Shown here: positions 23,414 through 40,483 of the stretch, in pieces
Numbering within the stretch: position 1 is the stretch's first letter
Layout of the letters: each line of letters starts with the position of its first letter
Origin: Cellulomonas flavigena DSM 20109
Lineage (GTDB): Bacteria; Actinomycetota; Actinomycetes; Actinomycetales; Cellulomonadaceae
Direction of reading: 5' to 3'
DNA: 64,000 nucleotides
Assembly: GCF_000092865.1 (NCBI RefSeq)
Contig: NC_014151.1
Coordinates: forward strand, 4,030,001-4,094,000
The notes under the pieces: model-generated
Told to the model about the DNA's origin: nothing
Databases searched by the model: none
Seen by the model: the letters and a program-made list of their open reading frames with translations, nothing else
Made by a program: the position numbers and the translations under genes

Positions 23414-23638
23414 ATGAGCACCACCACGTACGAGGTCATCGGGATGACCTGCGGCCACTGCGTCTCGTCCGTCACCGCGGAGGTCAGCAAGCTGGCTGGC
23501 GTGGACGACGTCGACGTCGCCCTGGTGCAGGGCGGCGCGTCCCGAGTGACGGTCAGCAGCAGCGCACCGCTGCCGCTGGACGACGTCCGCGCGGCCGTCG
23601 ACGAGGCGGGGTACGACCTGGTGGGCGAGTCGGCATGA
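23414..23638 (+). CDS. copZ: Copper chaperone CopZ (HMA domain)
   Basis: 74 aa, a single ferredoxin-like HMA domain with the Cu(I) site GMTCGHC (residues 10-16). It would shuttle Cu(I) to the neighbouring ATPases and to CsoR. ATGA overlap couples it to the 51-aa gene that follows. A partial CsoR-like sequence, CCCCGCCGGGGTAC, lies about 55 bp upstream. Confidence 0.92.
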   Translation: MSTTTYEVIGMTCGHCVSSVTAEVSKLAGVDDVDVALVQGGASRVTVSSSAPLPLDDVRAAVDEAGYDLVGESA

Positions 23639-26229: not shown

Positions 26230-26511
26230 ATGACACGGCACGGCACTTCGAAAGACCAGCAGCTCGCACGCCTGCGCCGGGTGGAAGGTCAGGTCCGGGG
26301 CATCGCGCGAATGGTCGAGGAGGACACGTACTGCATCGACGTCCTGACCCAGGTCTCGGCGGCCAGTCGGGCGCTGCAGGCGGTGGCGCTCGGGCTGCTC
26401 GACGACCACCTGGCGCACTGCGTCGTGGAAGCCGCCCGGGCGGGAGGTCCGGAGCAGCTGGCGAAGCTGCGTGAGGCCAACGAGGCCATCGCGCGCCTTG
26501 TCCGCAGCTGA
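26230..26511 (+). CDS. csoR: Copper-sensing repressor CsoR
   Basis: 93 aa all-helical CsoR/RcnR protein. The Cu(I) ligands are C35 (TYCIDVL), H60 and C64 (DDHLAHCV), the C-H-C set that defines CsoR rather than RcnR or FrmR. The C-terminal part also has the expected Glu/Arg-rich helix. The matching operator is at 20137-20155, before the first gene of the module. Confidence 0.92.
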   Translation: MTRHGTSKDQQLARLRRVEGQVRGIARMVEEDTYCIDVLTQVSAASRALQAVALGLLDDHLAHCVVEAARAGGPEQLAKLREANEAIARLVRS

Positions 26512-26775: not shown

Positions 26776-27408
26776 TCAGAGCTGCGCCAGGAGGGTCTCC
26801 ATGGTGCTGATCTCGGCGGTCTGGTCGTCGACGATCTTCTGAGCGAGCTCCAGCGCGTCAGGGTTGTCCCCGTCCGCCTGCTCGGTCTCGGCCATCTCGA
26901 TGGCGCCCCGGTGGTGGTCGATCATGAGCTCGAGGAACCGCGTGTCGAACTCGGTGCCGGACAACGAGCTGAGCTCGGACATGACGTCTTCGTGGTTCAT
27001 GCCCTCCATGTCCATGCCGCCATGGTCCATCCCGTCCATGCCGTCCATCCCGTCGGCGACAGGCTCCTCGCCCCACGACTCGAGCCATCCGGCCATCAGC
27101 TCGATCTCCGGACCCTGCGCTGCCGCGATGCGCTCACCGAGATCCTGGACCTCCGGCGTCGCGGCCTTCCCCGCCGCGAGCTGCGCCATCTCGATCGCGC
27201 CGTCGTGGTGCACGATCATCATCTGCGCGAACGTCGTGTCGGAGTCGTTGTGCGTGGACTCGCCGGCCGACGCCTCGGCGTTGGCCACCGTCTTCTGACC
27301 TGTGGGGCTCGGGTCTGCACCGTTCCCGGTCGAGCAGGCCGCGATGCTGAGAGTCAGTGCGGCGGCCGCAACGGTGGCGACGATCTGGCGTCGTGCGCGG
27401 TTCTTCAT
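26776..27408 (-). CDS. DUF305 lipoprotein
   Basis: 210 aa. A signal peptide ends in the lipobox SIAAC, so it should be lipid-anchored outside the membrane. Two DUF305 repeats each contain the metal-type motif: MMIVHHDGAIEMAQ and LMIDHHRGAIEMAE. Between them is a Met/Asp/Gly/His-rich linker (DGMDGMDGMDHGGMDMEGM). DUF305 proteins often accompany copper genes; copper binding is inferred. It is the last gene of the five-gene minus-strand operon starting at 29531. Confidence 0.88.
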   Translation of the reverse strand: MKNRARRQIVATVAAAALTLSIAACSTGNGADPSPTGQKTVANAEASAGESTHNDSDTTFAQMMIVHHDGAIEMAQLAAGKAATPEVQDLGERIAAAQGPEIELMAGWLESWGEEPVADGMDGMDGMDHGGMDMEGMNHEDVMSELSSLSGTEFDTRFLELMIDHHRGAIEMAETEQADGDNPDALELAQKIVDDQTAEISTMETLLAQL

Positions 27409-27456
27409 GGGTCTCCTGGTGGATGGGTGGTGCGGTAGCCCGGTGTGGGGTGAGAC

Positions 27457-27603
27457 CTAGGCTGCGTGTGTGCTCGTGCAGCAGGCTCCCGGAGCTTCCT
27501 GCACGGCCTTCGACGCACCGCCGCAGCAGCCGTCGGTCGTGGTGTCAGCGGTAGGCGAGGTCGTCGTGACGTCGGCAGGTGTCGTGTCCTTGCAGCAGGT
27601 CAT
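27457..27603 (-). CDS. 48-aa Cys-pair peptide
   Basis: ATG 27603 is preceded by GGAG at a good distance; the stop is at 27457-27459. The peptide has three adjacent Cys pairs (MTCCKD, GCCGGA, ACCTST) separated by Thr/Ser/Asp-rich linkers. It has no signal peptide and no family that I recognise. Six Cys in 48 residues suggests soft-metal binding, like a metallothionein, or a thiol substrate of the adjoining TlpA/CcdA system. It sits inside the operon, 48 bp before DUF305. Confidence 0.65.
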   Translation of the reverse strand: MTCCKDTTPADVTTTSPTADTTTDGCCGGASKAVQEAPGACCTSTHAA

Positions 27604-27659
27604 GGTGAAGCTCCGTTTCCGGTAGGGGTGATGCGTGTCGGTGAAGGGGGTTCGCAGCG

Positions 27660-28286
27660 TCAGAGTCGGCTCGTGACCTCCTTCAGCAGGTCGGCGGGGT
27701 CGAGCCACATGGACGGGTAGTCCCCGAACCAGGTCTGTGTGCCATCGGGGTCGATGAGGACGAAGCCGTGGCCCGGCAAGCCCTCGTGCATCCCTGTCCC
27801 CAGGACGCCGTAGGCCTCGGAGACGGTTCCGTCGTCGAGGAGGAAGGGTGCCTCCACGCCGAGGCGCAGGCGGTCGGCGTTGATCTGCTCGGCGGTGTTC
27901 ATCACGATCGGCAGGACGGTGATGCCGGCCTCCGCGAACCCGGGGTGCTGCTCGATCTTCTGCATCTGGACGAGGCACGAGTCGCAGCCTGCGCCCTCGT
28001 TGAAGTAGAGCACCACGGGGGAACCCGCGAAGTCCGACAGGGAGACCGTGGTGCCGTCCGAGACCGGGAGCGTGAAGCCAGGGGCGGTGCGTTCCGTGCT
28101 CGACTCGACCGGCCGGGCGCTGAGGAGAGCCGCCACCACCACGCCGAGGATCGCGAGGAGCGAGATGCCCCAGATGGTCCAGCTGCGGACCTGACGTCGG
28201 CGTGCGCCGGCTTGCTGCTGCCGGATCTCCTGCAGCGCGAGCTGACGATCGTGCTGCAGGCGCCGTGTGGCGCTGGCGGAGGTCAT
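27660..28286 (-). CDS. Membrane-anchored TlpA/redoxin-type thiol protein
   Basis: 208 aa. A basic cytoplasmic segment (1-35), one membrane span (about 36-57), then a redoxin/AhpC-TSA fold with PGFTLPVSDG, the active site GCDSC (CxxC) and DPDGTQTWF. Such proteins reduce or form disulphides on the outer face of the membrane and are fed by CcdA. Its start overlaps the stop of the CcdA-like gene at 28286. Confidence 0.85.
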   Translation of the reverse strand: MTSASATRRLQHDRQLALQEIRQQQAGARRRQVRSWTIWGISLLAILGVVVAALLSARPVESSTERTAPGFTLPVSDGTTVSLSDFAGSPVVLYFNEGAGCDSCLVQMQKIEQHPGFAEAGITVLPIVMNTAEQINADRLRLGVEAPFLLDDGTVSEAYGVLGTGMHEGLPGHGFVLIDPDGTQTWFGDYPSMWLDPADLLKEVTSRL

Positions 28287-29236
28287 CAGTGGGTCCTCTC
28301 CTCAGTCGGTGCGGTGTGGCAGGTGGGTGCGTCCGGCAGCGTGTCCGCCGTCGCGAGCGGGTCCGGCGTCGCTGTGCGTCGGCGCTCGGAGAGCGTCGCC
28401 CAGACGAACACCGCGGCCACGGCGAGGAGCCCGAGCCCTAGGAGCGGTTCGGGGACTGGGGACAGCCACTGCTGGACGTTCCCGAAGACGTCGGTCAGGA
28501 CGCGGCTCGCGGAGTCCTGGACGGCGGAGCCACCGGTCATCTCGGTGCTTCCTGCCAGGCCGATGACGAAGCCACCCATCACGGCGAAGCCGACCGCCAC
28601 CGCAATGTTGACGGTGTTCGTGACGAGCGTTCGCCCGGCGACGCGGATGCGCACCAGCTTGGCGCGCAGGAGCTTCTTCTCCCGCAGGCGGGCCTTGTCC
28701 CAGACCAGTGCCATCACGAAGAGCGGGAAGACCATCCCGAAGACGTACGCGAGGCCCAGGAGCAGTCCACCGCCGGGTGATCCGGAAAGGACCGAGAGCG
28801 TCATCACCCCGGCGAGCACGGGTGCGCAACAGCTCGACGCGATGCCGGAGAACACCCCGAGCGCGAAGAAGCTCGCCGTGTCGCCGGCGGTGGTGTCCGG
28901 TGCGCGGAGGAACGACGGCAGCGACCACATCCGCCCGGACAGTGCGAGCCCGGCCAGTGCGAGCATCAGCACGCCGCCGGCGTAGTACAGCGGCGCGTGG
29001 TACTGAGCGATCGCGCCGGCGATCAGACCCATGCCGAGCGTGATGGGCACCAGGACCAGTGCCAGCCCGGCGGCGAACACGAACGTGAGCGGCAGCAGGC
29101 GCCAGCGGCTGTTCTTGATGGCCCCCGCCAGGTAGCTCGGTGCGAGGAACACGATGCAGCACGGGGCGAACAGGGCGACGCCTCCGGCGAGGAACGCCGC
29201 CAGGATGCTCCCGGTGGTCAGCAGCTCGGAACCCAT
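28286..29236 (-). CDS. CcdA/DsbD-type transmembrane electron carrier
   Basis: 316 aa from ATG 29236; a longer start at 29263 is possible. It has six or more hydrophobic segments and the two redox Cys sites of the family, FAPCC (near residue 23) and SSCCAPV (near 135). It moves electrons from cytoplasmic thioredoxin or glutaredoxin to extracytoplasmic thiol proteins such as the TlpA-like partner. The Arg-rich region and C-terminal tail are cytoplasmic. Confidence 0.85.
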   Translation of the reverse strand: MGSELLTTGSILAAFLAGGVALFAPCCIVFLAPSYLAGAIKNSRWRLLPLTFVFAAGLALVLVPITLGMGLIAGAIAQYHAPLYYAGGVLMLALAGLALSGRMWSLPSFLRAPDTTAGDTASFFALGVFSGIASSCCAPVLAGVMTLSVLSGSPGGGLLLGLAYVFGMVFPLFVMALVWDKARLREKKLLRAKLVRIRVAGRTLVTNTVNIAVAVGFAVMGGFVIGLAGSTEMTGGSAVQDSASRVLTDVFGNVQQWLSPVPEPLLGLGLLAVAAVFVWATLSERRRTATPDPLATADTLPDAPTCHTAPTEERTH

Positions 29237-29237
29237 C

Positions 29238-29531
29238 TCACACCGCCCCAGTAGTCGTCGCACCGGTGCGGGCCTGCAACGCCCGGGCGAGCTTCTTGCG
29301 CGGCAGCCGGCCGGAGCTGAAGAACGCGCCGTCCAGCAGGACGAGCGGGCTCATCGCCGGGCGGTGCAGCGCCACGAGCGTCCTTCCCTCCGCCGAGTCG
29401 ATGTCCACGGGGCGCACCTCGATGCGGTGCTCGACGGCGAGCTCGCCAAGGGCCTCCTCAGCGTCGAGGCAGAAGTGGCAGGCAGGGGCGTGCACGACGG
29501 TGACGACTGGCGGGACGATCTCGGGACGCAC
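29238..29531 (-). CDS. Glutaredoxin-like protein
   Basis: 97 aa from GTG 29531. A small thioredoxin fold with the active site ACHFC (CHFC, about 18-21), then EVRPVDIDS and SPLVLLDG in place of the cis-Pro loop. It is the first gene of the operon and lies 1 bp from the ccdA start, so it may be the cytoplasmic electron donor. Confidence 0.8.
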   Translation of the reverse strand: MRPEIVPPVVTVVHAPACHFCLDAEEALGELAVEHRIEVRPVDIDSAEGRTLVALHRPAMSPLVLLDGAFFSSGRLPRKKLARALQARTGATTTGAV

Positions 29532-29601
29532 GGTGATCTCCTGACGTGTCCTGAACTGGCACCCTGAGCCTCGCTGTGCATTCCTGCAGGGTCGGTCGCT
29601 T

Positions 29602-29623
29602 TTCCGTCAACGTTCCATGAATG
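29602..29623. promoter_or_regulatory. 11-bp tandem repeat upstream of glutaredoxin operon and regulator gene
   Basis: TTCCGTCAACG and TTCCATGAATG lie in tandem, 71 bp before the glutaredoxin-like start and 38 bp before the response-regulator start. The 11-bp period fits an OmpR/PhoB-type dimer. It is one of seven similar sites in the module, all found by eye. Confidence 0.5.
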
Positions 29624-29660
29624 TCCTGGCGGTGTGCTGTGACGACACCACAATGGGTGC

Positions 29661-30392
29661 GTGAGCACCCTGTCGAGGCCCAGCGCCTCCACGCGACGTG
29701 CCGTCGTCGTCGACGATGAGCAAGCCCTCGCACTCCTCGTCGCCGGGTACCTCGAGCGAGACGGGTTCGAGGTGCAGTTGTGCTTCGACGGTGCACAGGC
29801 GGTGGAGCTGATCCGCCAGGTGGATCCGGACGTCGTCGTGCTGGACCTGGGGCTCCCCGGGCTCGACGGCATCGAGGTTTGCCGCGGGCTGCGCACGTTC
29901 TCCGACTGCTACGTGCTCATGCTGACCGCCAGGGCCGAGGGGGTCGACACGCTCATCGGCCTCTCCGTGGGGGCAGATGACTACATGACCAAGCCGCTCA
30001 GCCCGCGTGAGCTCATGGCCCGGATCGAGGTGCTGCTCCGGCGGCCACGGCGAGCCGAGGTCACCACCCGACCCTCGGCCCCAGAGACGGTCATCAGCAT
30101 CGGCGAGCTGACCCTCGATCCGGTCGGACGAGAGGTCACGGTCGACGGTCAGCTGGCCCCGCTCACCCGGACCGAGTTCGACGTGCTGTCCGCGCTGGCA
30201 TCCCGCCCCGAGATGGTCTTCACCCGTCGGGCACTGATCGACATCGTGTGGGGTCCTGCATGGGTCGGCGACGAGCACCTCGTGGACGTGCACGTCCTGC
30301 ACGTCCGCCAGAAGCTCGGTGACAACGCTGAGCGGCAACGCTTCGTCCGCACCGTGCGCGGCGTCGGGTATCGCCTGGGTGCGGGCGAGTGA
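29661..30392 (+). CDS. OmpR/PhoB-family response regulator (orphan)
   Basis: 243 aa from GTG 29661. The receiver domain has acidic pair DDE (near 20), phosphoacceptor Asp in VVVLDLGLPG, Thr in MLTAR and Lys in MTKPLSP. The C-terminal winged helix ends in the usual VRTVRGVGYRLG. No histidine kinase gene is present nearby, so the partner is elsewhere or lost. Direct repeats upstream of its own gene and of neighbouring operons make it the best candidate for the regulator of the module. Confidence 0.9.
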   Translation: MSTLSRPSASTRRAVVVDDEQALALLVAGYLERDGFEVQLCFDGAQAVELIRQVDPDVVVLDLGLPGLDGIEVCRGLRTFSDCYVLMLTARAEGVDTLIGLSVGADDYMTKPLSPRELMARIEVLLRRPRRAEVTTRPSAPETVISIGELTLDPVGREVTVDGQLAPLTRTEFDVLSALASRPEMVFTRRALIDIVWGPAWVGDEHLVDVHVLHVRQKLGDNAERQRFVRTVRGVGYRLGAGE

Positions 30393-30460
30393 ACGCCACG
30401 GGCGCTTCTCCTGCCCTCCTGCCTATGACGTGATCTCGTCGGTGCCGAGGCCCGCGCGTC

Positions 30461-30690
30461 CTAGGGCGCCCGCGACCCGCGGGAACCCTCACCGAGGTTG
30501 CTGATCAGACGTCTATCGGTGTCCGCGTCGAGGTCGCCGGCGAGGAACCGTGCGTCGAGGCGGCCCTGTCGTCCTGAGCGACTCCGGGAAAGAGTCGAGT
30601 CACCGCCCACACGGACACGCCGAGAACGGCGACAACGCACGCGATCATGACCCAACCTGCGACTCCGCCGCTGGCGTATCACGCGCCCAT
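30461..30690 (-). pseudogene. Decayed SHOCT-type small membrane protein
   Basis: The minus strand from ATG 30690 reads MGA, a TGA where Trp is expected, then YASGGVAGWVMIACVVAVLG and a WAVTRLF end to one membrane span. After a +1/-1 shift near the AQDD codons, another frame reads LDARFLAGDLDADTDRRLIS, the SHOCT helix pair. A nonsense change and a frameshift thus separate two recognisable halves. SHOCT proteins are common next to DUF305 and copper genes. Confidence 0.6.
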
Positions 30691-30765
30691 GTCTGCTCCC
30701 AAGCCCGGGCACCAGGTGGTGCCGTGACCAGCATGGCCGCGCAGCATCAACTCCCGATCGACTCG

Positions 30766-30787
30766 GCATGAAGCCTCGATGAAGCGC
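30766..30787. promoter_or_regulatory. 11-bp tandem repeat (ATGAAGC pair)
   Basis: GCATGAAGCCT is followed directly by CGATGAAGCGC, so ATGAAGC recurs exactly 11 bp apart. It lies 76 bp before the start of the decayed SHOCT gene, the same distance as other sites of the set. Confidence 0.5.
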
Positions 30788-30883
30788 ACAGACAAGGCAG
30801 AAAGCCGGCCGGTCGCCAGGGGAGATGGCGACCGGCCGACGGCTGGTGGGGTCGAGCAGGCACGTCAGGGCCCGTACCGGGCG

Positions 30884-31669
30884 TCACGGCTCCCGTGGGA
30901 CAAGACCCGCTCCGACAGGATCCGGCGTGGGCGTGATCGGCGCCAGGGTGGTTCGGGAGCGGACGACCAGGACGATCCCGACCGCGACACTCAGCAAGGA
31001 CCACAGCTGAGGTTGCGTGAGACCGGCGACGACGGCGTCGTTGGTGCGCAGCTCCTCCACGAGCAGACGGGCCACACCGGACAGCGCCAGGTAGGCACCG
31101 AAGACCGTCTGTCCTGTCGCGTGTCTACCCAGTGCCCACAGTCCCCACGCGATGAGCACGGCAGCGATCGCCTCGTAGGCCGGTGTGGGGTGGACGGGGA
31201 CGTCAGTGGGTACCGCCCCGTCCGGGAACGTCATCGCCCACGGCAGGCTCGAGGGCTCCCCGTACGTGCCGTCACCCGAGAGCAGGCACCCGAGGCGCCC
31301 CACGCCGTACGCGAGCGTCAAGGGAACTGCCGTCGCGCCGGCGACGACTTCGAGCGGGAGACGGTGGCGCCGGATCACGACGAGCGCCGCTGCGACACCT
31401 CCGAGCAACCCGCCGTACCACGTGAACCCCATCCCACCGAAGTCGTGCAGGCTCACCGTCGGAAGCTGCTCGAACAGGTAGTACACCTTCGCGCCGATGA
31501 ACCCCCAGAACGTGGCGGACATCACGAGATCGTAAGCCGATTCGCGTTTCAGGCCCCGAGCTGTGAATGCACGTCCAAGCAGGTACGCGGCGAGCAGCGC
31601 AGCCAGCACCTTGCTCACGCCATAGGTCTGGACTTCCACGCCGAGCACGGTGAAGAGGACGGGCTGCAT
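30884..31669 (-). CDS. lgt: Prolipoprotein diacylglyceryl transferase homologue
   Basis: 261 aa with seven predicted membrane spans. Lgt adds diacylglycerol to the lipobox Cys of prolipoproteins. The chain has GFIGAKVYYL, FTWYGGLLGG and HPTPAYEA. The signature GRxGNFxNxE…G appears as GRLGCLLSGDGTYG, a variant seen in the divergent branch of the family. Because the module itself encodes lipoproteins (DUF305 and the propeller), this copy may serve them. A housekeeping lgt elsewhere is assumed. Confidence 0.85.
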   Translation of the reverse strand: MQPVLFTVLGVEVQTYGVSKVLAALLAAYLLGRAFTARGLKRESAYDLVMSATFWGFIGAKVYYLFEQLPTVSLHDFGGMGFTWYGGLLGGVAAALVVIRRHRLPLEVVAGATAVPLTLAYGVGRLGCLLSGDGTYGEPSSLPWAMTFPDGAVPTDVPVHPTPAYEAIAAVLIAWGLWALGRHATGQTVFGAYLALSGVARLLVEELRTNDAVVAGLTQPQLWSLLSVAVGIVLVVRSRTTLAPITPTPDPVGAGLVPREP

Positions 31670-31754
31670 TGCGAGACTGCTCCTCGAGTGATCCGGAAGG
31701 AGAGTGCACTCCTCCGCCCGTGTCCGGGCAGGTACACAGCATCTCGTCCGGCCG

Positions 31755-31776
31755 TCAAGGTCTCCCGGATCTTCCC
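31755..31776. promoter_or_regulatory. Candidate 11-bp tandem repeat upstream of lgt
   Basis: TCAAGGTCTCC and CGGATCTTCCC lie 86 bp before the lgt start. The match to the other sites is weaker, with a third related unit (GGAAGGTTCGA) after it. Confidence 0.3.
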
Positions 31777-31884
31777 GGAAGGTTCGATCAAGAGACGACC
31801 AGGGCGGCAGGTGTCGTGTTTCAGCGCCGAACAGTCAGCGTGCACGAGGCACCTGGGACAGCGCGGATTCCGCAGGAGTCCTGC

Positions 31885-32298
31885 TCAGCCCAGCGCCGTT
31901 TCGTGGTGGTTCGCGTGCTCCGTCGGGGAGACGTCCGGCGCCGGCGTGTCAGTTCCGGACAGGCGAGGACCGATGACGAAGGTCGACAGCGCGAACATCC
32001 CGGTGAACACGAGCAGCGCGACCGCTGGCGCCCACCAACTCGAGAAGTGCCTGCGCAACCGGATCAGGAAGGGAACTGACAACGCCAGGCCGAGTGCTCC
32101 GAACAGGATCGTCCCACCCGCTCCCGCAACCAGTGCCGTGCCCACCAGCGGCCCCACGTGGTGCAGGACGTGCGGCGCCGCACCAAAGACCGCGCCGAGG
32201 GCGCCGTTCAGAGCCGTCCACAGGGTGCGTGCGCCGGACCGGCGCCCCGTTGCGACGGGTTCGGGTGCGATGACCAGCTCTTTCGTGGCGGAATCCAT
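31885..32298 (-). CDS. Hypothetical three-span membrane protein with His-rich tail
   Basis: 137 aa from ATG 32298; ATG 32334 is an alternative. It has hydrophobic segments near 40-50, 55-80 and 92-115, with HVLHHVGPLVGTALVAGAGG at the second. The C-terminus carries EHANHHETALG. I have seen this pattern in uncharacterised proteins of actinobacterial metal-resistance loci, but no function is known. It probably forms a transcription unit with or near lgt. Confidence 0.6.
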   Translation of the reverse strand: MDSATKELVIAPEPVATGRRSGARTLWTALNGALGAVFGAAPHVLHHVGPLVGTALVAGAGGTILFGALGLALSVPFLIRLRRHFSSWWAPAVALLVFTGMFALSTFVIGPRLSGTDTPAPDVSPTEHANHHETALG

Positions 32299-32334
32299 GC
32301 GCCCAGGATCCGCGGGGCGAGCAGCAATCCCCAT

Positions 32335-32726
32335 GGAGGAACGGTCAACGCTCGATGAAGTTCCCGGTCGGGTCCACTAGAAGCACGTGCGGTACGTGCC
32401 GCCGGGACCATCGGGACCATCGCGCCTCAGAGCGACGATCCCACGCGTGGCATCCGCGTCGAGTGCGGGCATCACACCGGTGGACGCAACGGTGAGCCTC
32501 ACCGTCGGAGCATGGCTGTGCCCGTGAGCCTGCGCATAGGACCTTCGGCGCAGCGTGCGACGCGTCAAGGAATGCCCTGATGAAGGTTTCCTGAAGTTGC
32601 CGTCAAGAATGAGCCCACAGGCCTCTGACGGTCCGGGGTGGGCTTACTTTCATCTCGCTCGAGCATGCGCCCGAGAAGCGAGCTCTACTCGCCTGGCGCG
32701 GCTCCCTCCGACATGAGGAGTCGATG
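32335..32726 (+). other. Upstream region of etfBA
   Basis: About 390 bp without a gene. It holds the tandem repeat at 32579-32600. GCACGTGCGGTACGTGC (32383-32399) is a short palindrome of unknown role. Confidence 0.35.
32579..32600 (+). promoter_or_regulatory. 11-bp tandem repeat upstream of etfBA
   Basis: GATGAAGGTTT is followed directly by CCTGAAGTTGC, giving TGAAGnTT twice at an 11-bp period, with a third weaker unit (CGTCAAGAATG) after it. It lies 127 bp before the etfB start. The two units fit an OmpR-type binding site. Confidence 0.5.
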
Positions 32727-33515
32727 ATGAGGATCGTGGTGTGCGTCAAGCACGTACCTGACGTCCAGGCAGACCGGCAGTTCGGTGCGGACGGCCACGT
32801 CGACCGGACGCAGGACGACGGCACGCTCAACGAGCTCGACGAGTACGCCCTCGAGGCGGCGCTGGTGGTCGCCGAGGAGGTTGGCGGACAGGTCGTCGTC
32901 CTGACGATGGGCCCGCCCGCGGCGGAGGGCGCGGTACGGCGGGGGCTGCAGATCGGCGCCACCCAGGGTGTGCACGTGGTCGACGACGCGCTTGCCGGCT
33001 CCGACGCGTTCGCGACCGCGCACGTGCTGGCCGCAGCGATCCGCAAGATCGGTCAGGACGCTCCGGTAGACCTGGTCGTCACCGGGATGGCGTCCCTCGA
33101 CAGCCTGACGTCCGTTGTGCCGACTCTGCTGGCCGCCGAGCTCCACATCGCCGAGCTCACGCTGGCTGCCAAGGTCACGGTCGCACACGGCCTGGTGCGC
33201 ATCGAACGGGAGCTGGACGATGCGCGTGAGGTGCTCGAGGCACCGCTGCCCGCCGTCGTCAGCGTCACCGATCGCGCGAACGAACCGCGTTACCCGAGCT
33301 TCAAGGGCATCGCAGCAGCTCGAAGGACGCCAGTGACCCACTGGACGATCGCAGATCTGGCCATCGAGCCCAGTCGGGTCGGTTCGGCTGCGGCCAGGAC
33401 CCGCGTGGTCGACGCGGTCGCACGCCCGAAGCGGGAGAACCGGGTACTCATCACGGACTCCGGGGACGCCGGGATACGCCTGGCCGCCTACCTCGTCGAC
33501 AACAACCTCGCCTGA
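32727..33515 (+). CDS. etfB: Electron transfer flavoprotein, beta subunit
   Basis: 262 aa from ATG 32727, with GAGGAG at 32715-32720. EtfB begins with the typical RIVVCVKHVPD and has NELDEYALEAAL (AMP-binding region) and the later SVTDRANEPRYPSFKGIAAA, which covers the ETF-beta signature. With EtfA it carries electrons between flavoenzymes. No acyl-CoA dehydrogenase or FixCX partner lies nearby. Confidence 0.9.
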   Translation: MRIVVCVKHVPDVQADRQFGADGHVDRTQDDGTLNELDEYALEAALVVAEEVGGQVVVLTMGPPAAEGAVRRGLQIGATQGVHVVDDALAGSDAFATAHVLAAAIRKIGQDAPVDLVVTGMASLDSLTSVVPTLLAAELHIAELTLAAKVTVAHGLVRIERELDDAREVLEAPLPAVVSVTDRANEPRYPSFKGIAAARRTPVTHWTIADLAIEPSRVGSAAARTRVVDAVARPKRENRVLITDSGDAGIRLAAYLVDNNLA

Positions 33516-33527
33516 AGGAGCACCGGT

Positions 33528-34520
33528 ATGGCACTGAACGATCGGACCCACGCAGGTCCTGTCCTGGTCCTCGTCGACCACCGGGACGGGGTCGTCGCCG
33601 GCCCCACCCTCGAGCTTCTCACCGTCGCGCGATCCCTCGGGCGTGTGCACGCCCTGTGGCGCGGCGCTGCTCCAGACGGGCGCGCGATCCGCTCGCTCGG
33701 GGAGTACGGCGCCGAGGTCGTCCACCACATCGCGGCCGTGGACCCCGACGCGGAACTGTCGGCGGTCCTCGCCCACGACCTGGTGGACGTCGCGGAGAGC
33801 GGCGCGGTGAGCACGGTCCTGCTGTCCTCGACGGCCCAGCACAAGGAGGCCGCGGCGCGAGCGGCATTCGTCCTGGGAAGCGGCCTCGTCGTCGATGCGG
33901 TCGGCGTGCGACACGAACAGGACGCAAGGGTCGAGGCCACGGTGCACGCGTTTGCTGCGACGTGGGCCGTGCGTATCGACGTGGGTCACCCACGAGCCGT
34001 GATCACGCTCCGGCCCGGTGCCGTCGCCCCCGACGCCGTCCAGGAGGCTCTCTTCCCCGAGGTTCGCCCGCGCCGGCCCGAGAACTCCGTCGACCTGCGC
34101 GGGGTGCGCGTCCTCGAACGCATCGCGCACCCCTCCTCGTACGGTCCCGACCTGGCGAGCGCGCGCGTTGTCGTGGCTGGAGGACGCGGGACCGATGGTG
34201 ACTTCAGCGCGCTGCGTGAGCTCGCCGTGGCTCTCGGCGGTGCGGTCGGCTCGACGCGTGTCGCAACGGACGAGGGGTGGATCGGGACCGAGACGCAGAT
34301 CGGCCAGACCGGGGTGGCGGTAGCACCCGCCCTCTACATCGGGGCCGGAATCTCCGGAGCGGTCCACCACCGCAGCGGCATGCAGTCGGCTGGCACCATC
34401 GTCGCGATCAACACCGATCCGGAGGCACCGATCTTCGAGCTCGCCGACTTCGGGGTAGTGGGGGATCTCTTCACGGTGCTGCCCCAGCTCACCGCCGAGC
34501 TGCGACGGCTGCGGACGTGA
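33528..34520 (+). CDS. etfA: Electron transfer flavoprotein, alpha subunit
   Basis: 330 aa, 12 bp after etfB. The C-terminal FAD domain is well preserved: ALYIGAGISGAVHHRSGM, then TIVAINTDPEAPIFELADFG and VVGDLFTVLPQL. The N-terminal half has the Rossmann-like EtfA fold. The substrate-specific partner is unknown; the FprA-like reductase and polyferredoxin downstream are candidates to share electrons with it. Confidence 0.9.
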   Translation: MALNDRTHAGPVLVLVDHRDGVVAGPTLELLTVARSLGRVHALWRGAAPDGRAIRSLGEYGAEVVHHIAAVDPDAELSAVLAHDLVDVAESGAVSTVLLSSTAQHKEAAARAAFVLGSGLVVDAVGVRHEQDARVEATVHAFAATWAVRIDVGHPRAVITLRPGAVAPDAVQEALFPEVRPRRPENSVDLRGVRVLERIAHPSSYGPDLASARVVVAGGRGTDGDFSALRELAVALGGAVGSTRVATDEGWIGTETQIGQTGVAVAPALYIGAGISGAVHHRSGMQSAGTIVAINTDPEAPIFELADFGVVGDLFTVLPQLTAELRRLRT

Positions 34521-34522
34521 TC

Positions 34523-34537
34523 GGTGGCGGCGCCACC
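34523..34537 (+). terminator. Small hairpin after etfA
   Basis: GGTGGC/GCCACC, a 6-bp stem with a 3-nt loop, directly after the etfA stop and with no T-run. Confidence 0.35.
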
Positions 34538-34559
34538 CGTCATCGGTCCCGCGCTCTTC

Positions 34560-34581
34560 ATCGGACCTTGACGCGAAGTTG
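34560..34581 (+). promoter_or_regulatory. 11-bp tandem repeat upstream of the DUF3105 gene
   Basis: ATCGGACCTTG is followed directly by ACGCGAAGTTG, and the second unit matches the etfBA site (GAAGTTG). It lies 176 bp before the DUF3105 start. Confidence 0.4.
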
Positions 34582-34756
34582 ATCGTTCTTCGAGATGCGC
34601 CGGGCAGTCTCGGATCGCGTACTGATTCCCACGCGCGCACGCCACGGCAGCCTCGTCTCCGGCAGCGGGACGTTCGTGGGCGTGAGCGCTGATCCGCGTG
34701 CTGCCCCCCGACGGCGCCGCGCCCGTGGACGTCGTCGTCGGACGAAGGAGGAAGCA

Positions 34757-35431
34757 GTGAGCGCAGCAAGCAAGCGCACGAGCACGCGCGAGGACCGGGC
34801 GGCTCGTCTCGCCCTCATCCAGGCCGAGCAACGTGCCGCGGAGCGACGTCGGACGCGTCGCTGGGTCGTCGTCAGCTCCATCGTGGTCCTGGCTGTCGCG
34901 GCGCCGACGACGTTCGTCATCGCCGGTGAGGCACGTCGTGATGCCGAGGTCGCGGACGTGGCCGCCCGCCCCATCGCGGGCGAGCAGCAGGTAGACGTGG
35001 CGGAATCGGGACACGTGCCCGGCGAGGTCGACTACCAGAGCGAGACGCCGGCGGACGATGACCGCGGCGTCCTCCCGCCGATCGGCGGCGACCACGACCA
35101 GATCCCGCAGAACTGCGGGTACTACACCGAGCCGGTGCGCGACGAGAACGCGGTGCACTCCCTCGAGCACGGAGCCGTATGGGTCACCTACCGCGACGAC
35201 GTCAGCGCCACCGACAGGGATCGCCTGCGGGACCTGGCGGAGAAGAACCCGTACCTTCTCGTCACGCCGTACACCGATCTCGCGGCTCCGGTCGTTGCCA
35301 CCGCCTGGGGGGTGCAGCTCGAGGTCGACTCCGCGCTGGACGACCGGCTCGAGCCGTTCCTGGTGCGCTACCTGGAGAGCGAGGATGCGCCGGAGCCTGG
35401 AGCGCCTTGCTCGGGGGGCGTCGGCGTCTGA
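34757..35431 (+). CDS. DUF3105 membrane-anchored protein
   Basis: 224 aa from GTG 34757, preceded by AAGGAGG. A basic coiled N-terminus (1-35) and one membrane span (about 36-56) precede an exported domain. That domain has the DUF3105 core: GHVPGEVDYQ, PQNCGYYTEP and ENAVHSLEHGAVWVTY. The conserved His residues suggest metal binding, but no function is established. Confidence 0.85.
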   Translation: MSAASKRTSTREDRAARLALIQAEQRAAERRRTRRWVVVSSIVVLAVAAPTTFVIAGEARRDAEVADVAARPIAGEQQVDVAESGHVPGEVDYQSETPADDDRGVLPPIGGDHDQIPQNCGYYTEPVRDENAVHSLEHGAVWVTYRDDVSATDRDRLRDLAEKNPYLLVTPYTDLAAPVVATAWGVQLEVDSALDDRLEPFLVRYLESEDAPEPGAPCSGGVGV

Positions 35432-35452
35432 CCGACCTGCACGGTGGGAGTC

Positions 35453-35476
35453 GCGCGTGCCACCGTCGGCACGCGC
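35453..35476. terminator. Terminator hairpin between DUF3105 and the FprA-like gene
   Basis: A perfect 9-bp stem GCGCGTGCC/GGCACGCGC with a 6-nt loop, 21 bp after the DUF3105 stop. The two genes converge. The rest of 35432-35640 holds nothing else recognisable. Confidence 0.6.
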
Positions 35477-35640
35477 GGCTCTGGCCGCCGCGGTCCTGAG
35501 AAGGGCTCGGGACGAACTCCTGGTCCTGGTCCTCCTGCCCAGCTGATCACCCGAGCGCTGGAGGCGCACTGCGTCTCGCTCGGGATGCTCGGAGCGGTGT
35601 CGGCCCGAGCCCGTGCGCTTCCCTCATACCGAGCAAACGC

Positions 35641-37035
35641 TCACGCCTGCCCTCGGCTCGCGGCGATCATCTCCTCCCGGGAGACGACCTTGATGCGCTC
35701 CCGGCCCTGAGTCGCCCCGAGCGACTGCTCGTAGGCGTCGAGGAGCCGCCAGCCGGACCACTCCACGTAGCCGATGCCGCGCGCGACGAGCAGCTCCGTG
35801 ACGGCCCGCGGCTCGGGCTGTGCGGCTCGCTGCAAGCGGTCGACGTCCGAGACGAGGTGCTTGATCGTCTCGGACGCGTCCGACTTGGTGTGGCCGATGA
35901 GCCCGACAGGTCCACGTTTGATCCACCCGGTGGCGTAGACGCCGGGGACGAGCTCGCCGTCGCCGTCGACCACGCGGCCCTCGCGGTTGGGGATGACACC
36001 CGCGACATCATCGAACGGGATGTCGATGAGCGGGGACCCGAAGTATCCGATCGCGCGGTACACGCCCTGGACGGGCCAGTCGTGCATCTGCCCGGTACCG
36101 GTGACGTTGCCGTCGCCTGTGAGCGCGGTGCGCTCGGTGCGCAGCCCCACGGCCTTGCCGTCCTGACCGAGCACCTCGACGGGCTTGTGCAAGAAGTGCA
36201 GGTGGAGCCGGCGGCTCGCGGTCAGCTCGTCGGGGTCCTTGAGCGTCCAGTCCGTGAGGGTCTTGACGACCTGCTTCGTCTGGTTCGACGAGTGGATCGC
36301 CGCATAGGAAGCGTCATCGAACTCGAAGTCCTCGGGGTAGACGATGACGTCGACGTCCGGGACGTGGCCGAGCTCGCGCAGCTCGAGCGGGGAGAACTTG
36401 ACCTGCGCGGGGCCGCGCCGGGCGAAGACGTGCACGTCAGTGACGGGTGATGCCTTGAGCTGGTCGTAGACGTTCGCTGGGATCTCAGTCGGCAGCAGGT
36501 CGTCCGCGTGCTTGGCCAGGATGCGCGCGACGTCGAGCGCCACATTCCCGGCACCGAGCACCGCGACGTGCTGGGCTTCGAGCGGCCACGTGCGCGGCAC
36601 GTCGGGGTGCCCGTCGTACCAGGACACGAAGTCGGCGGCACCGTAGGACCCGTCGAGGTCGATGCCCGGGATCGGCAGCGCGGCGTCACGGATCGAGCCG
36701 GTCGAGAAGATCACGGCGTCGTAGAACGTCCGCAGGTCCTCGAGCTTGAGGTCGGTGCCGTAGTCGACGTTCGCGAGCAGGCGGATGTCGCCGCGCTCGA
36801 GGATCTTGTGCAGCGCGACGATGATCTGCTTGATGCGCGGGTGGTCGGGCGCCACGCCATATCGCACGAGACCGAACGGCGCGGGCAGTCGCTCGAACAG
36901 GTCGATGGACACCTCGATACCGGCCTTCGACAGGATGTCGGCTGCGTAGATGCCGGCCGGTCCGGCTCCGACGATGGCGACGCGGAGTGCTGTCGTCGGG
37001 TGTGGTCGTGCGGTCTGCTCGGGTGTGGCGGGCAT
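35641..37035 (-). CDS. fprA: FprA-type ferredoxin-NADP reductase
   Basis: 464 aa of the adrenodoxin-reductase family. The FAD fold is AIVGAGPAGIYAADIL (about 19-34), then PFGLVRYGVAPDHPRIKQI. The NADPH fold is VAVLGAGNVALDVARIL, and the C-terminal FAD segment is VYATGWIKRGPVGLIGHTK. It passes NADPH electrons to ferredoxins or the reverse. Last gene of a three-gene minus-strand operon, 57 bp after the polyferredoxin, its likely partner. Confidence 0.9.
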   Translation of the reverse strand: MPATPEQTARPHPTTALRVAIVGAGPAGIYAADILSKAGIEVSIDLFERLPAPFGLVRYGVAPDHPRIKQIIVALHKILERGDIRLLANVDYGTDLKLEDLRTFYDAVIFSTGSIRDAALPIPGIDLDGSYGAADFVSWYDGHPDVPRTWPLEAQHVAVLGAGNVALDVARILAKHADDLLPTEIPANVYDQLKASPVTDVHVFARRGPAQVKFSPLELRELGHVPDVDVIVYPEDFEFDDASYAAIHSSNQTKQVVKTLTDWTLKDPDELTASRRLHLHFLHKPVEVLGQDGKAVGLRTERTALTGDGNVTGTGQMHDWPVQGVYRAIGYFGSPLIDIPFDDVAGVIPNREGRVVDGDGELVPGVYATGWIKRGPVGLIGHTKSDASETIKHLVSDVDRLQRAAQPEPRAVTELLVARGIGYVEWSGWRLLDAYEQSLGATQGRERIKVVSREEMIAASRGQA

Positions 37036-37092
37036 GGGTCTGTCTCCAGGGGAACGTGGTGAAGTGGCGGATCGGGTAGCGGTACCGACCGC

Positions 37093-38523
37093 TCACATGC
37101 GGTGGGCCATGGGCAGCAGGAACATCCACACGTTGATCGCGCCGAGGAGCGCGATGATCGCGACGTACGGGGTGAGGGTCGCGCGCCGGCGCTCGGCGGT
37201 GCGGTAGCGGCGGTGGGCGATGCGCTTGGCGGTGTAGATCGACCCGGCGATGCCCAGGGCGAGCAGCGCGAACTGCAGCACCTGGATCGTCCCGGTGCCG
37301 ACCAGGGCGGGGTCGCCGCTGACGCCCGCACCGAAGACGTTCGCCACGGTGTAGTAGACCGAGCCGCCCTCGGCGAGCAGGTGGAACAGGTTGTGCGCCA
37401 GGTGCCCGGCGACGTCGAGCGGGATGAGCGCGTACCCGAACCGCGTGAAGTTGAGCTTGGTGTCCTCGAGGTTGCGTCCGGCGGCGACGCGGGAGGCGAC
37501 GGCCAGCAGCGCGACGGGCACCGACACGGCGACGACGAACGCGACCGTGAAGATCACCGGGTAGCTGGTGATGCCGGTGGTGGCCTCGATCCAGGCGAGG
37601 ACGTCGGTCCAGACCTCGAGCATGGTGATGTTCTGGATCAGGACGATGCCCATGATCGCCATGGCGAGCATCGACTGCTCGATCTTGGGCTTGGTGATGA
37701 ACCACAGCTCGGAGGTGGGCTTGCGCAGGCGGATCTGGATCGCGTCGTTGGGGCAGGACTTGACGCAGTTGGCGCACAGGTTGCAGTTGGCGCTGTCCTC
37801 CATCGTCCGGGGGAACGTGAAGAGCGGGCAACCGGCGACCTTGTCGTTGCCGTTGTAGCAGACGGCCTTGGACTTGCAGGTCTTGCAGATGGCGCTGTCG
37901 GCGCGCAGCTCGACCATCCCGACCCGGGCGTAGTTGCCGGCGAGCCCGCCGAGGAAGCACAGGTAGCGGCAGAACGTGCGCCGCTGGAACAGCGCCCCCG
38001 ACGCGATGACCGCGGTCGTGAGCAGGAGCAGGAGGATCCCGGAGCCCCACGGGGACTCCACGACGCCCCACACGTGGTCCGCCCACGTGATGAGGAGGAA
38101 CGACGCGTCGATGATCCAGATGCCGTAGTTCTTCAGGAAGTTCGGCACCGGGCGGTTGACCCCGACGAGCTTCTGCACCGCGTCGGACAACGCCCCGAAC
38201 GGGCAGACCGCGCACCAGAACCTGCCGAGCAGCACGAAGACGATGGGGATGACCGGCCACCACAGCACCCACATCAGCGCGGTGCCGGCGTTGTCGTGGG
38301 CGCGGTCCGGCCCGGCGAGCAGCTGGTACGCCACGAGCCCGAAGACCGCCGCGATCGGGATCTGGAAGATCTTCGGGTACCAGCCGGAGCGCAGCGACCG
38401 GGCGACCCACGGGATCGTCATGAGGTTGCGGCCCACCGGCGGTGGGGTCAGGTCCGGGCCCGGGTTGACGTCGGGATCCACCGGTTCGGCGGCAGGCGGC
38501 GGGGTGAGCGTCGGGGTTGTCAT
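37093..38523 (-). CDS. NapH/NosR-type membrane polyferredoxin
   Basis: 476 aa. Several membrane spans are interrupted by FWCAVCPFG and FCRYLCFLGG, the CxxCP-type motifs of NapH, NosR and RdxA-like proteins. Two further Cys clusters follow: ICKTCKSKAVC and CNLCANCVKSCPNDAIQI, the second a [4Fe-4S] ferredoxin motif. Later spans contain His residues (LDVAGHLAHNLFHLL) that may ligate heme. It probably moves electrons across the membrane. No nitrate or nitrous oxide reductase is present, so the acceptor is unknown. Confidence 0.8.
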   Translation of the reverse strand: MTTPTLTPPPAAEPVDPDVNPGPDLTPPPVGRNLMTIPWVARSLRSGWYPKIFQIPIAAVFGLVAYQLLAGPDRAHDNAGTALMWVLWWPVIPIVFVLLGRFWCAVCPFGALSDAVQKLVGVNRPVPNFLKNYGIWIIDASFLLITWADHVWGVVESPWGSGILLLLLTTAVIASGALFQRRTFCRYLCFLGGLAGNYARVGMVELRADSAICKTCKSKAVCYNGNDKVAGCPLFTFPRTMEDSANCNLCANCVKSCPNDAIQIRLRKPTSELWFITKPKIEQSMLAMAIMGIVLIQNITMLEVWTDVLAWIEATTGITSYPVIFTVAFVVAVSVPVALLAVASRVAAGRNLEDTKLNFTRFGYALIPLDVAGHLAHNLFHLLAEGGSVYYTVANVFGAGVSGDPALVGTGTIQVLQFALLALGIAGSIYTAKRIAHRRYRTAERRRATLTPYVAIIALLGAINVWMFLLPMAHRM

Positions 38524-38549
38524 GGCGGGTTCCTGGGGTTCGGGGGCGG

Positions 38550-39113
38550 TCAGGCCGGGAAGGGGGTGGCGCCCGCGCGGGGCCGGTGACGAGGACGTGC
38601 ACGGTCGCGGCGGCGCAGGACGGCCGCGGCGACGAGCACCGCGCTGTTGACACCCGCGAACGTGGACAGGGCCGCGGCCAGCGGGCGGGGAGCGGAAGCC
38701 GTGCCCTCGTCGGCGTGGCCCCCGTCGCCGTGCTCCCCAGTTGTCGAGTCGTGCTCTGCTCCCACGCCGCCGGTGTCCCGGGGCGCCGTGTCTTCGGAGC
38801 CGGTGCCGGCGTCGTGCCCCTCGTCGTGCGTCGAGTCCTCGCCGGCGCCGGAGTGATCCATGCCTTCCATCGGAGCCATGCCCTCCATGTCCTGGATCGG
38901 TGCCGTCTGTTCCAGCGCAGGCCCGTCGCCTTGCTGGTCCGTGTCCGTGCCGGCGTCCGCCGGGGCAGGGTCGTGCTCTGTGGTGTCGTGGTCGGTCGTG
39001 TCCTGTTGTACGACGGCGGCAGACTCAGGCGCTGCCATGGCGGAAGTCGTCACGCCGAGCAGCGGAACGGCGAGAGCGACGGCCACCGGCAGCCGAACGA
39101 GAGCGGGATGCAT
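38550..39113 (-). CDS. Exported Met/His/Asp-rich protein
   Basis: 187 aa. The signal peptide ends at about TSAMAAPE. The exported part is of low complexity, with DHDTTEHD, MEGMAPMEGMDHSG and repeated His/Asp/Gly. The C-terminal hydrophobic stretch (about 150-166) and the Arg-rich tail anchor it in the membrane. It resembles the linker of the DUF305 lipoprotein, so copper or other metal storage is inferred. First gene of the operon with the polyferredoxin and FprA. Confidence 0.65.
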   Translation of the reverse strand: MHPALVRLPVAVALAVPLLGVTTSAMAAPESAAVVQQDTTDHDTTEHDPAPADAGTDTDQQGDGPALEQTAPIQDMEGMAPMEGMDHSGAGEDSTHDEGHDAGTGSEDTAPRDTGGVGAEHDSTTGEHGDGGHADEGTASAPRPLAAALSTFAGVNSAVLVAAAVLRRRDRARPRHRPRAGATPFPA

Positions 39114-39193
39114 GAGAGCTCCTCACGAAGGTTTCTGCCTGGACTGTCGTCTCGTACCGGCGCCCGCACATGGGACCTGTAGGTCCCCGAAAG

Positions 39194-39215
39194 CAACGTC
39201 CATCAAAACTTCATC
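39194..39215. promoter_or_regulatory. 11-bp tandem repeat upstream of the Met/His-rich operon
   Basis: CAACGTCCATC is followed directly by AAAACTTCATC, 81 bp before the start codon at 39113. On the gene strand it reads GATGAAGTTTT-GATGGACGTTG, close to the etfBA site. Confidence 0.5.
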
Positions 39216-39328
39216 GAGGCTGCGACCGACCGAGTGCTGAGCCCGCGGACGCGGGTCGAGGCATGTGGCACTGACGACGCCCCCCGACAGGAAGGGGTCC
39301 GTCGAGCGACCAGTGCGCTGGCATGTGC

Positions 39329-40483
39329 TCAGCCGTGGTCGTCGTCGCCGTGTGCGTCGGAGTGGCCGCTGCCCTCCGACCCGGTGGAGTAGTCCGGGAT
39401 CGTGAGGGCGGGGGCGGCCTTCGGGCGCGCGCCCGTGCGTGGCGTGAAGGAGATCCCGTTGGGGAGGTCACCGACCGGGATCGTGGCTGCGACTGTGTTC
39501 GTGGCGAGGTCCAGCACAGAGACGGTGCCGTCGTAGAGGTTGGTCACCCACGCGACCTCCCCGGAGGGGTCGACGACCACGCCGTGCGGGCCCGATCCGG
39601 TCGTGATGGTCGCCCGGACATCCATCGTGGCGACGTCGATGATCGTCACGGTGTCACCGGGTGCATCTGCGGTGCCCTGGTCGGCGGACAGCAGGCTGGT
39701 CCCGTCCGGGGTCAGGTACAGCTGCACCGGCGGGGACGGCACCTCCACCGTCGCGACGACCGCCTGCGCTGTCAGGTCGACCTTCGCGACTGTGCTGGTC
39801 CCGGCCAGGCTCACGTACGCGGTGCGGGCGTCGTCCGACACGGCGACCTGGACCGGCGACTCACCGACCGGAATGGTCGCGATGCGCGTGAGGGTTGCGG
39901 GGTCGACCACGTCGATGGTGCCGGCACTCGTGCCGGCGACCACCAGGACAGCGCCGTCGCCGCTGGGACGCTGGCCGTGCGGACCTGCACTGAGGTCGAG
40001 GGTGCCGGTCGGGGCGAGGGTGGCGGCGTCGTAGCGGTCGAGGGAGTCCTCACCGGAGTTCGTCACGAATACCGCCGACCCGTCGGGCGTCAGCACCACG
40101 TGTGCGGGGCTGCTGCCGGTGGCCGCGGTCCCGCGCAGCTCGTACGTCTCCGCGTCGAGAGCGACGAGGGCCTGGTTGAGGCCACTGACCGCCCAGACGG
40201 TGCCCCCGTCCGGACTGGTCTGCACGTTGTGCGGACTGGGAATCCCCGTCACCTCGGTCAGCACCTGGCCGCTGGCAGCGTCGATCGCGATCAACGTCCC
40301 ATCGCCCTCATTGGCCACCCACACCGTGCCAGTCACCCCAGTGGTCGCCGGCGTCTTGGTTGCAGACGTGGTGGCGACGGTGTCCGCGGCTGGGGGCTCT
40401 GCGTCGGAGCCGCATGCGGCGAGAAGCAGGGTGCTCGCGGCGGCGATGGTGAAGAGGATCGGGCGACGGGTCGGGGTCCACAT
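39329..40483 (-). CDS. YncE-like beta-propeller lipoprotein
   Basis: 384 aa. A signal peptide with lipobox LLAAC is followed by seven blades of the YVTN/YncE type, with repeated units such as VWVANEGDGTLIAID, AVFVTNSGEDSLDRYD and AWVTNLYDGTVSVLD. The C-terminal tail SGHSDAHGDDDHG is His/Asp-rich. Such propellers often bind partners or metal ions; the ligand is unknown. Its lipobox makes it a possible client of the module's Lgt. Confidence 0.82.
   Translation of the reverse strand: MWTPTRRPILFTIAAASTLLLAACGSDAEPPAADTVATTSATKTPATTGVTGTVWVANEGDGTLIAIDAASGQVLTEVTGIPSPHNVQTSPDGGTVWAVSGLNQALVALDAETYELRGTAATGSSPAHVVLTPDGSAVFVTNSGEDSLDRYDAATLAPTGTLDLSAGPHGQRPSGDGAVLVVAGTSAGTIDVVDPATLTRIATIPVGESPVQVAVSDDARTAYVSLAGTSTVAKVDLTAQAVVATVEVPSPPVQLYLTPDGTSLLSADQGTADAPGDTVTIIDVATMDVRATITTGSGPHGVVVDPSGEVAWVTNLYDGTVSVLDLATNTVAATIPVGDLPNGISFTPRTGARPKAAPALTIPDYSTGSEGSGHSDAHGDDDHG

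Follow-up and report, generated by a model that had tools for sequence, protein, structure and literature searches.

A polyferredoxin and its anchored His/Met-rich partner in a Cellulomonas metal-resistance island: a candidate copper-handling redox cassette

The stretch of DNA analysed here, referred to as the window, comprises 64,000 nucleotides of Cellulomonas flavigena DSM 20109 (G000:C1:4030001-4094000, inside a 4.12-Mb single-contig genome) and contains a 13.7-kb block, at 26776-40483, in which metal-binding proteins are encoded next to thiol and electron carriers. This block is a modular metal-resistance island and not one system. Its conserved heart is a two-gene cassette, which encodes an exported, His/Met-rich, membrane-anchored protein and a polyferredoxin. 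With a probability of about 0.5 we read the cassette as a copper-handling redox unit which, by analogy with the cupric reductase CcoG, would send electrons outward across the membrane, where the anchored arm carries copper. An original prediction for this DNA had listed the genes of the block and combined them into a single system; all of them were found where it had placed them, by family matches or, for a CcdA-like protein, by position and cysteine pairs.

The His/Met-rich protein (38550-39113, minus strand, 187 residues, C-terminal membrane anchor) has no Pfam domain and lies 26 bp from the polyferredoxin gene (37093-38523, minus strand, 476 residues). Two short conserved peptides, scanned against the genome_contigs collection (described as covering 84,980 species), yielded 73 loci, of which 42 are actinobacterial and 31 others according to their titles; they are not independent, as several are near-identical relatives and the query peptides favour close relatives. 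To count as a strict partner, a gene product had to carry a hydrophobic helix and a positive tail at its C-terminus, with His plus Met making up 9% or more of the stretch before the helix; these thresholds were chosen after the sequences had been seen. Such a gene lies directly upstream of the polyferredoxin on the same strand in 47 of the 73 loci, versus 1 of 346 called genes and 7 of 2102 open reading frames in 20 control regions of 20 kb, taken at round-number positions from eight genomes of the same family. Eleven further loci carry an anchor with fewer His/Met residues or one missed by the choice of frame, which brings the total to 58 of 73 (38/42 actinobacterial, 20/31 other). The pair spans Actinobacteria, Bacilli, Desulfosporosinus, a Clostridium and a chloroflexus. 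Its recurrence across phyla, often near copper genes, supports the predicted tie between envelope metal handling and low-potential electron carriers.

The anchor itself is conserved as well. A MAFFT alignment of 54 partners (53 of the 58 and that of the window) gives the consensus RPxxxVLGxFxxxNxxVLxxAxxLRRR with Phe in at least 90%; when all 58 rows are registered on this Phe, which fixes its own value by construction, Pro reaches 78%, Gly 71% and Asn 62%. From the stop of the partner to the polyferredoxin match the median distance is 30 bp (range -16 to 184). Among the 15 loci without an anchored partner, one is a contig end (L052), two have an Lgt-like gene upstream instead (L053, L058), two a Met-rich DUF305 gene without anchor (L068, L069) and four are unclear or broken (L066, L070, L071, L072). 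The polyferredoxin gene of a Sanguibacter locus (L070/L117) is broken across two frames. Six distant deltaproteobacterial relatives (L076-L081) have a conserved neighbourhood of their own, with a HEAT-repeat protein upstream and no anchored partner.

What kind of protein is the polyferredoxin? It matches Pfam Fer4_5 and Fer4 and reaches no NCBIfam family at its curated cut-off. The original prediction had called it NapH-like, which holds for its iron-sulfur (Fe-S) half: hhalign aligns columns 55-270 to YccM (probability 98.1) and columns 92-267 to NapH (96.7), so that this half is assigned by sequence to the NapH/YccM-like membrane fold at the superfamily level. Membership of the NapH/MauN family itself does not hold, with 31.2 against a required 213.05 bits for TIGR02163 and 24.1 against 234 for PRK09477; the models of this family recognise all 31 polyferredoxin relatives compared, weakly (best E value 4.8e-13). 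About 200 C-terminal residues lie outside both alignments. This membrane half, which bears a His motif, has a confident predicted structure (predicted local distance difference test score, pLDDT, 93), for whose model no solved structural relative was detected. Twelve Cys, His373 and His380 are invariant across the 31 relatives (these numbers being the protein's own minus one). Hydropathy, together with the cytoplasmic position given for the NapH clusters in PMC5449189, would place the Fe-S clusters inside and the arm of the partner outside. The nearest named homologues are Cellulomonas proteins, and 1570 relatives were found at an E value of 1e-20 among 7998 scored candidates.

The closest known comparison is the ccoGHIS system, that is CcoG/FixG with CcoH/FixH and CcoI, together with YccM. 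Both sides share a membrane Fe-S protein related to YccM, copper ATPases among the gene neighbours and, at certain loci, a partner with a YtkA domain, which we take to resemble FixH. In contrast to CcoG, the polyferredoxin of the window matches neither the CcoG model nor an Ig-like domain in Pfam, carries a further membrane half of some 200 residues at its C-terminus and comes with a conserved His/Met-rich anchored partner; cbb3 oxidase genes were not seen among the families matched in the window. YccM is described as a smaller homologue of CcoG in a review (PMC7558416). As for NapGH, the likeness ends with the Fe-S half, and no nap genes were recognised in the window.

The outer part of the cassette appears to be exchangeable. 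Next to the partner in the window lies a YVTN/YncE-type propeller (39329-40483, minus strand, recognised by the YNCE family) with a lipoprotein-like N-terminus and a His/Asp-rich tail, 215 bp away; at a second locus of the same genome propeller and anchor form one open reading frame, followed by a polyferredoxin 93% identical to that of the window. Among the 54 aligned partners five carry BNR-type repeats, three a YtkA domain and one a YncE-type propeller; the other domain matches are one weak CarboxypepD_reg and overlapping propeller models. DUF305 is fused into 9 of the 120 propeller homologues listed (746 were found), and DUF305, propeller, His/Met-rich protein and polyferredoxin follow each other in a row in two regions (L103 and L105). 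The DUF305 protein of the window (26776-27408, minus strand) is of the CopM type, scoring 104.2 bits against a cut-off of 90 for NCBIfam CopM (NF049983) and matching the solved CopM structure; here it stands beside CopA and a redox cassette, and related propellers hold DUF305 within the same protein. The propeller was also considered as a clade III lactonase-type nitrous-oxide reductase and discarded (83.1 versus 700 bits).

Copper genes accompany the polyferredoxin more often than expected, yet they are far from universal. Neighbourhoods of up to 10 kb on each side were counted in the 73 loci and compared with 18 Cellulomonadaceae regions (L006 and 17 others, eight of which repeat loci of the 73) and the 20 control regions; some loci and some family regions are short. 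A copper ATPase is found in 15/42 actinobacterial and 6/31 other loci, 11/18 family regions and 0/20 controls, and DUF305 in 8/42, 0/31, 10/18 and 0/20, respectively; for family regions against controls this corresponds to P values of 2.6e-5 for CopA and 9.3e-5 for DUF305. OmpR-type regulators are present in 24/42, 12/31, 9/18 and 1/20. The one in the window (29661-30392, plus strand) lacks a kinase. A related island (L149) carries, where the window has 30405-30455, an additional stretch of about 1.1 kb with a sensor kinase (HisKA, HATPase_c) adjoining its response regulator, and the absence of this stretch would explain the regulator without partner. At the second locus of the genome the adjoining regulator is 74% identical, and a gene beside it probably encodes a kinase, an assignment by resemblance only.

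We favour the copper-redox reading on the grounds of this enrichment, the conservation of the partner well above controls, the domain fusions, the CopM match, the YccM likeness of the Fe-S half and the electron-donor modules discussed below. Several observations weigh against it. CopA was not detected at the threshold used in 27/42 actinobacterial and 25/31 other loci, some of them short. Multicopper oxidases, which usually oxidise Cu(I), are encoded near the polyferredoxin in 8/42 actinobacterial and 4/31 other loci (3/18 family regions, 0/20 controls). A CsoR-like operator was not found with the search pattern used, no ferredoxin gene is present in the block, and the CcoG/RdxA/FixG model (TIGR02745) is not matched at an E value of 0.001 by any of the 31 relatives.

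Finally, the loci in Desulfosporosinus look iron-related. There, as in L065 (11419-13977), genes for an FtrD-like protein (PF10080) and of ATP-binding cassette (ABC) type come after the polyferredoxin, resembling part of the Fet iron clusters. This raises the alternative that the cassette serves iron, as part of an uptake or redox system akin to Fet/Ftr clusters; in its favour, the Campylobacter Fet cluster unites a DUF2318 protein with an ABC transporter and thioredoxins (PMC10783030). We consider it very unlikely, given that no FtrC/FetM permease or P19 was seen among the families matched in the window, that the block also has no recognised FtrD-like gene, and that actinobacterial loci hold CopA, CopM-type DUF305 and CsoR-type genes.

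Where would the electrons come from? The gene directly following the polyferredoxin in the window, after 57 bp (35641-37035, minus strand), encodes an FprA-type NADPH-ferredoxin reductase, which aligns to FprA (1lqt) over residues 18-457 with 282 bits and so belongs with the FprA/adrenodoxin reductases. Fpr adjoins the polyferredoxin in 4/42 actinobacterial loci, all named Cellulomonas or Actinotalea; a paralogue, 81% identical, is encoded elsewhere in the genome without cassette neighbours. A second type of module is found in Clostridium aminobutyricum (L074, 11419-14888), where the polyferredoxin is directly followed by genes for EtfB, EtfA and FixC-like and FixX-like proteins, the FixC and FixX models matching below their cut-offs, while CopA, a short HMA-type protein, a regulator and a kinase are encoded divergently upstream. 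Against four presumably electron-bifurcating Etf chains the EtfA of this locus reaches 291-327 bits, against human EtfA 140. In contrast to this FixABCX-like arrangement the window block holds EtfBA alone, with no FixC or FixX gene recognised among the family matches of its proteins, and its EtfA is non-discriminating (143 bits to 7koe versus 129 to the human protein). Both FprA and the EtfBA-FixC/X-like operon would be expected to provide low-potential electrons; a further point against our reading is that the latter link comes from one genome, the cassette being present in 1/291 genomes of the class.

These modules also bear on a quinol-fed alternative, in which the polyferredoxin would take electrons from menaquinol, as a NapH-like protein, and deliver them to the outer metal arm with FprA and EtfBA as bystanders. 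The NapH match of the Fe-S half, the weak recognition of all relatives by NapH-family models and the lack of an adjoining donor gene in most loci (Fpr 4/42, EtfB 1/42 actinobacterial) would suit it, whereas the direct attachment of two unrelated low-potential donor modules in some lineages would not, and overall we regard it as unlikely.

In the copper-redox reading, the exported His/Met-rich protein, either by itself or together with the propeller, would hold copper outside the cytoplasmic membrane, tethered beside the polyferredoxin by its one helix. Low-potential electrons from the cytoplasm would enter the polyferredoxin, here probably from NADPH via FprA and a ferredoxin, with EtfBA as a possible second input, and would pass the Fe-S clusters and the conserved Cys and His in the membrane to reduce Cu(II) to Cu(I) at the outer side. 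The resulting Cu(I) might then stay bound to the Met-rich arm, to the propeller and to the CopM-type DUF305 protein, CopA, CopZ and CsoR would clear the cytoplasm of copper, and the thiol relay could keep exported thiols reduced. As predicted originally, no terminal reductase or oxidase was recognised among the family matches of the block, and a metal acceptor outside the membrane is plausible. More tentatively, and at clearly less than even odds, the cassette may represent a new class of transmembrane metal reductase. Its polyferredoxin, of the YccM/NapH type and with a membrane half whose His motif would be novel, would then carry low-potential electrons, supplied in some lineages by a bifurcating EtfBA-FixCX-like complex, to a tethered Met/His arm outside the membrane that would hold copper or another metal and be tuned by exchangeable YVTN, BNR and YtkA outer domains. 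If the reading is right, this widespread, largely Gram-positive cassette, which in places has recognisable donor modules, would make the question of its electron donor directly testable, and a function could be proposed for many proteins named just '4Fe-4S binding protein' or 'polyferredoxin'.

The cross-genome comparison thus marks the pair as the supported unit, extended by propeller and DUF305 and, in these genera, by Fpr. More loosely associated with it are EtfBA, DUF3105, Lgt and the thiol relay. EtfB (32724-33515, plus strand, the second copy of the genome) and EtfA (33528-34520, plus strand) are followed by a DUF3105 membrane protein (34595-35431, plus strand), which has a counterpart in 1/42 actinobacterial loci and occurs in 56/200 genomes of the family, many without the cassette. 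The extra Lgt (30884-31669, minus strand, PF01790) recurs in 5/42, as does a 149-residue His-containing membrane protein (31885-32334) without Pfam or NCBIfam match, which accompanies Lgt in several metal islands. The relay comprises a TlpA-like redoxin (27660-28286, AhpC-TSA/Redoxin), the CcdA-like membrane protein (28286-29263, no Pfam match) and a glutaredoxin-like protein (29238-29531, Glrx-like), all on the minus strand; their counterparts number 4, 4 and 6 among the 42 loci and 4/18 each among the family regions. A 48-residue peptide with three Cys-Cys pairs (27457-27603, minus strand) shares this pattern with 1 of 9 other TlpA-bearing loci inspected (L149), these nine including two pairs that are the same locus. 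Co-occurrence, proposed originally as the check on a single system, thus bears out the polyferredoxin and its partner and does not support one system that includes EtfBA, DUF3105, Lgt and the relay.

The block might even be a mere mobile island of separate resistance modules, with these four functionally unconnected to the polyferredoxin, which we judge quite unlikely. Their rarity near other polyferredoxins fits this view, as do the patchy cassette (16/200 family and 8/394 class genomes) and an IS481-type transposase at the right end of the block. Against it stands the proximity of EtfB: encoded in 197/200 family genomes, it has a copy no more than 15 kb from the polyferredoxin in at least 3 of the 16 cassette genomes (G000, G102, G157), with 0.29 expected and 3 observed among the matches listed (P about 0.003, or about 0.03 if the related islands of G000 and G102 are counted once). 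The convergent order EtfBA-Fpr-polyferredoxin is likewise kept in one Actinotalea locus (L009, the same as L106), with Etf proteins 53-59% identical. One other genome of the genus (G102) has most of the block too: the stretch from CopA2 to DUF3105 aligns in four pieces with 78-89% DNA identity and without the CsoR stretch, and some 9 kb beyond it lies an operon of DUF305, propeller, His/Met-rich protein, polyferredoxin and Fpr, oriented as in the window.

Around the block the island also encodes Acr3, ArsP, MerA and a copper-efflux set on the plus strand, consisting of CopA1 (20281-22818), CopZ (23414-23638), CopA2 (23813-26122) and a CsoR-type repressor (26230-26511). Transposase-like open reading frames to the left of the block were assigned by eye alone. 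Further to the right, a DnaB helicase gene (42393-45749, 1118 residues) contains one intein splicing domain along with two LAGLIDADG stretches, which point to one intein, and probably two, within it.

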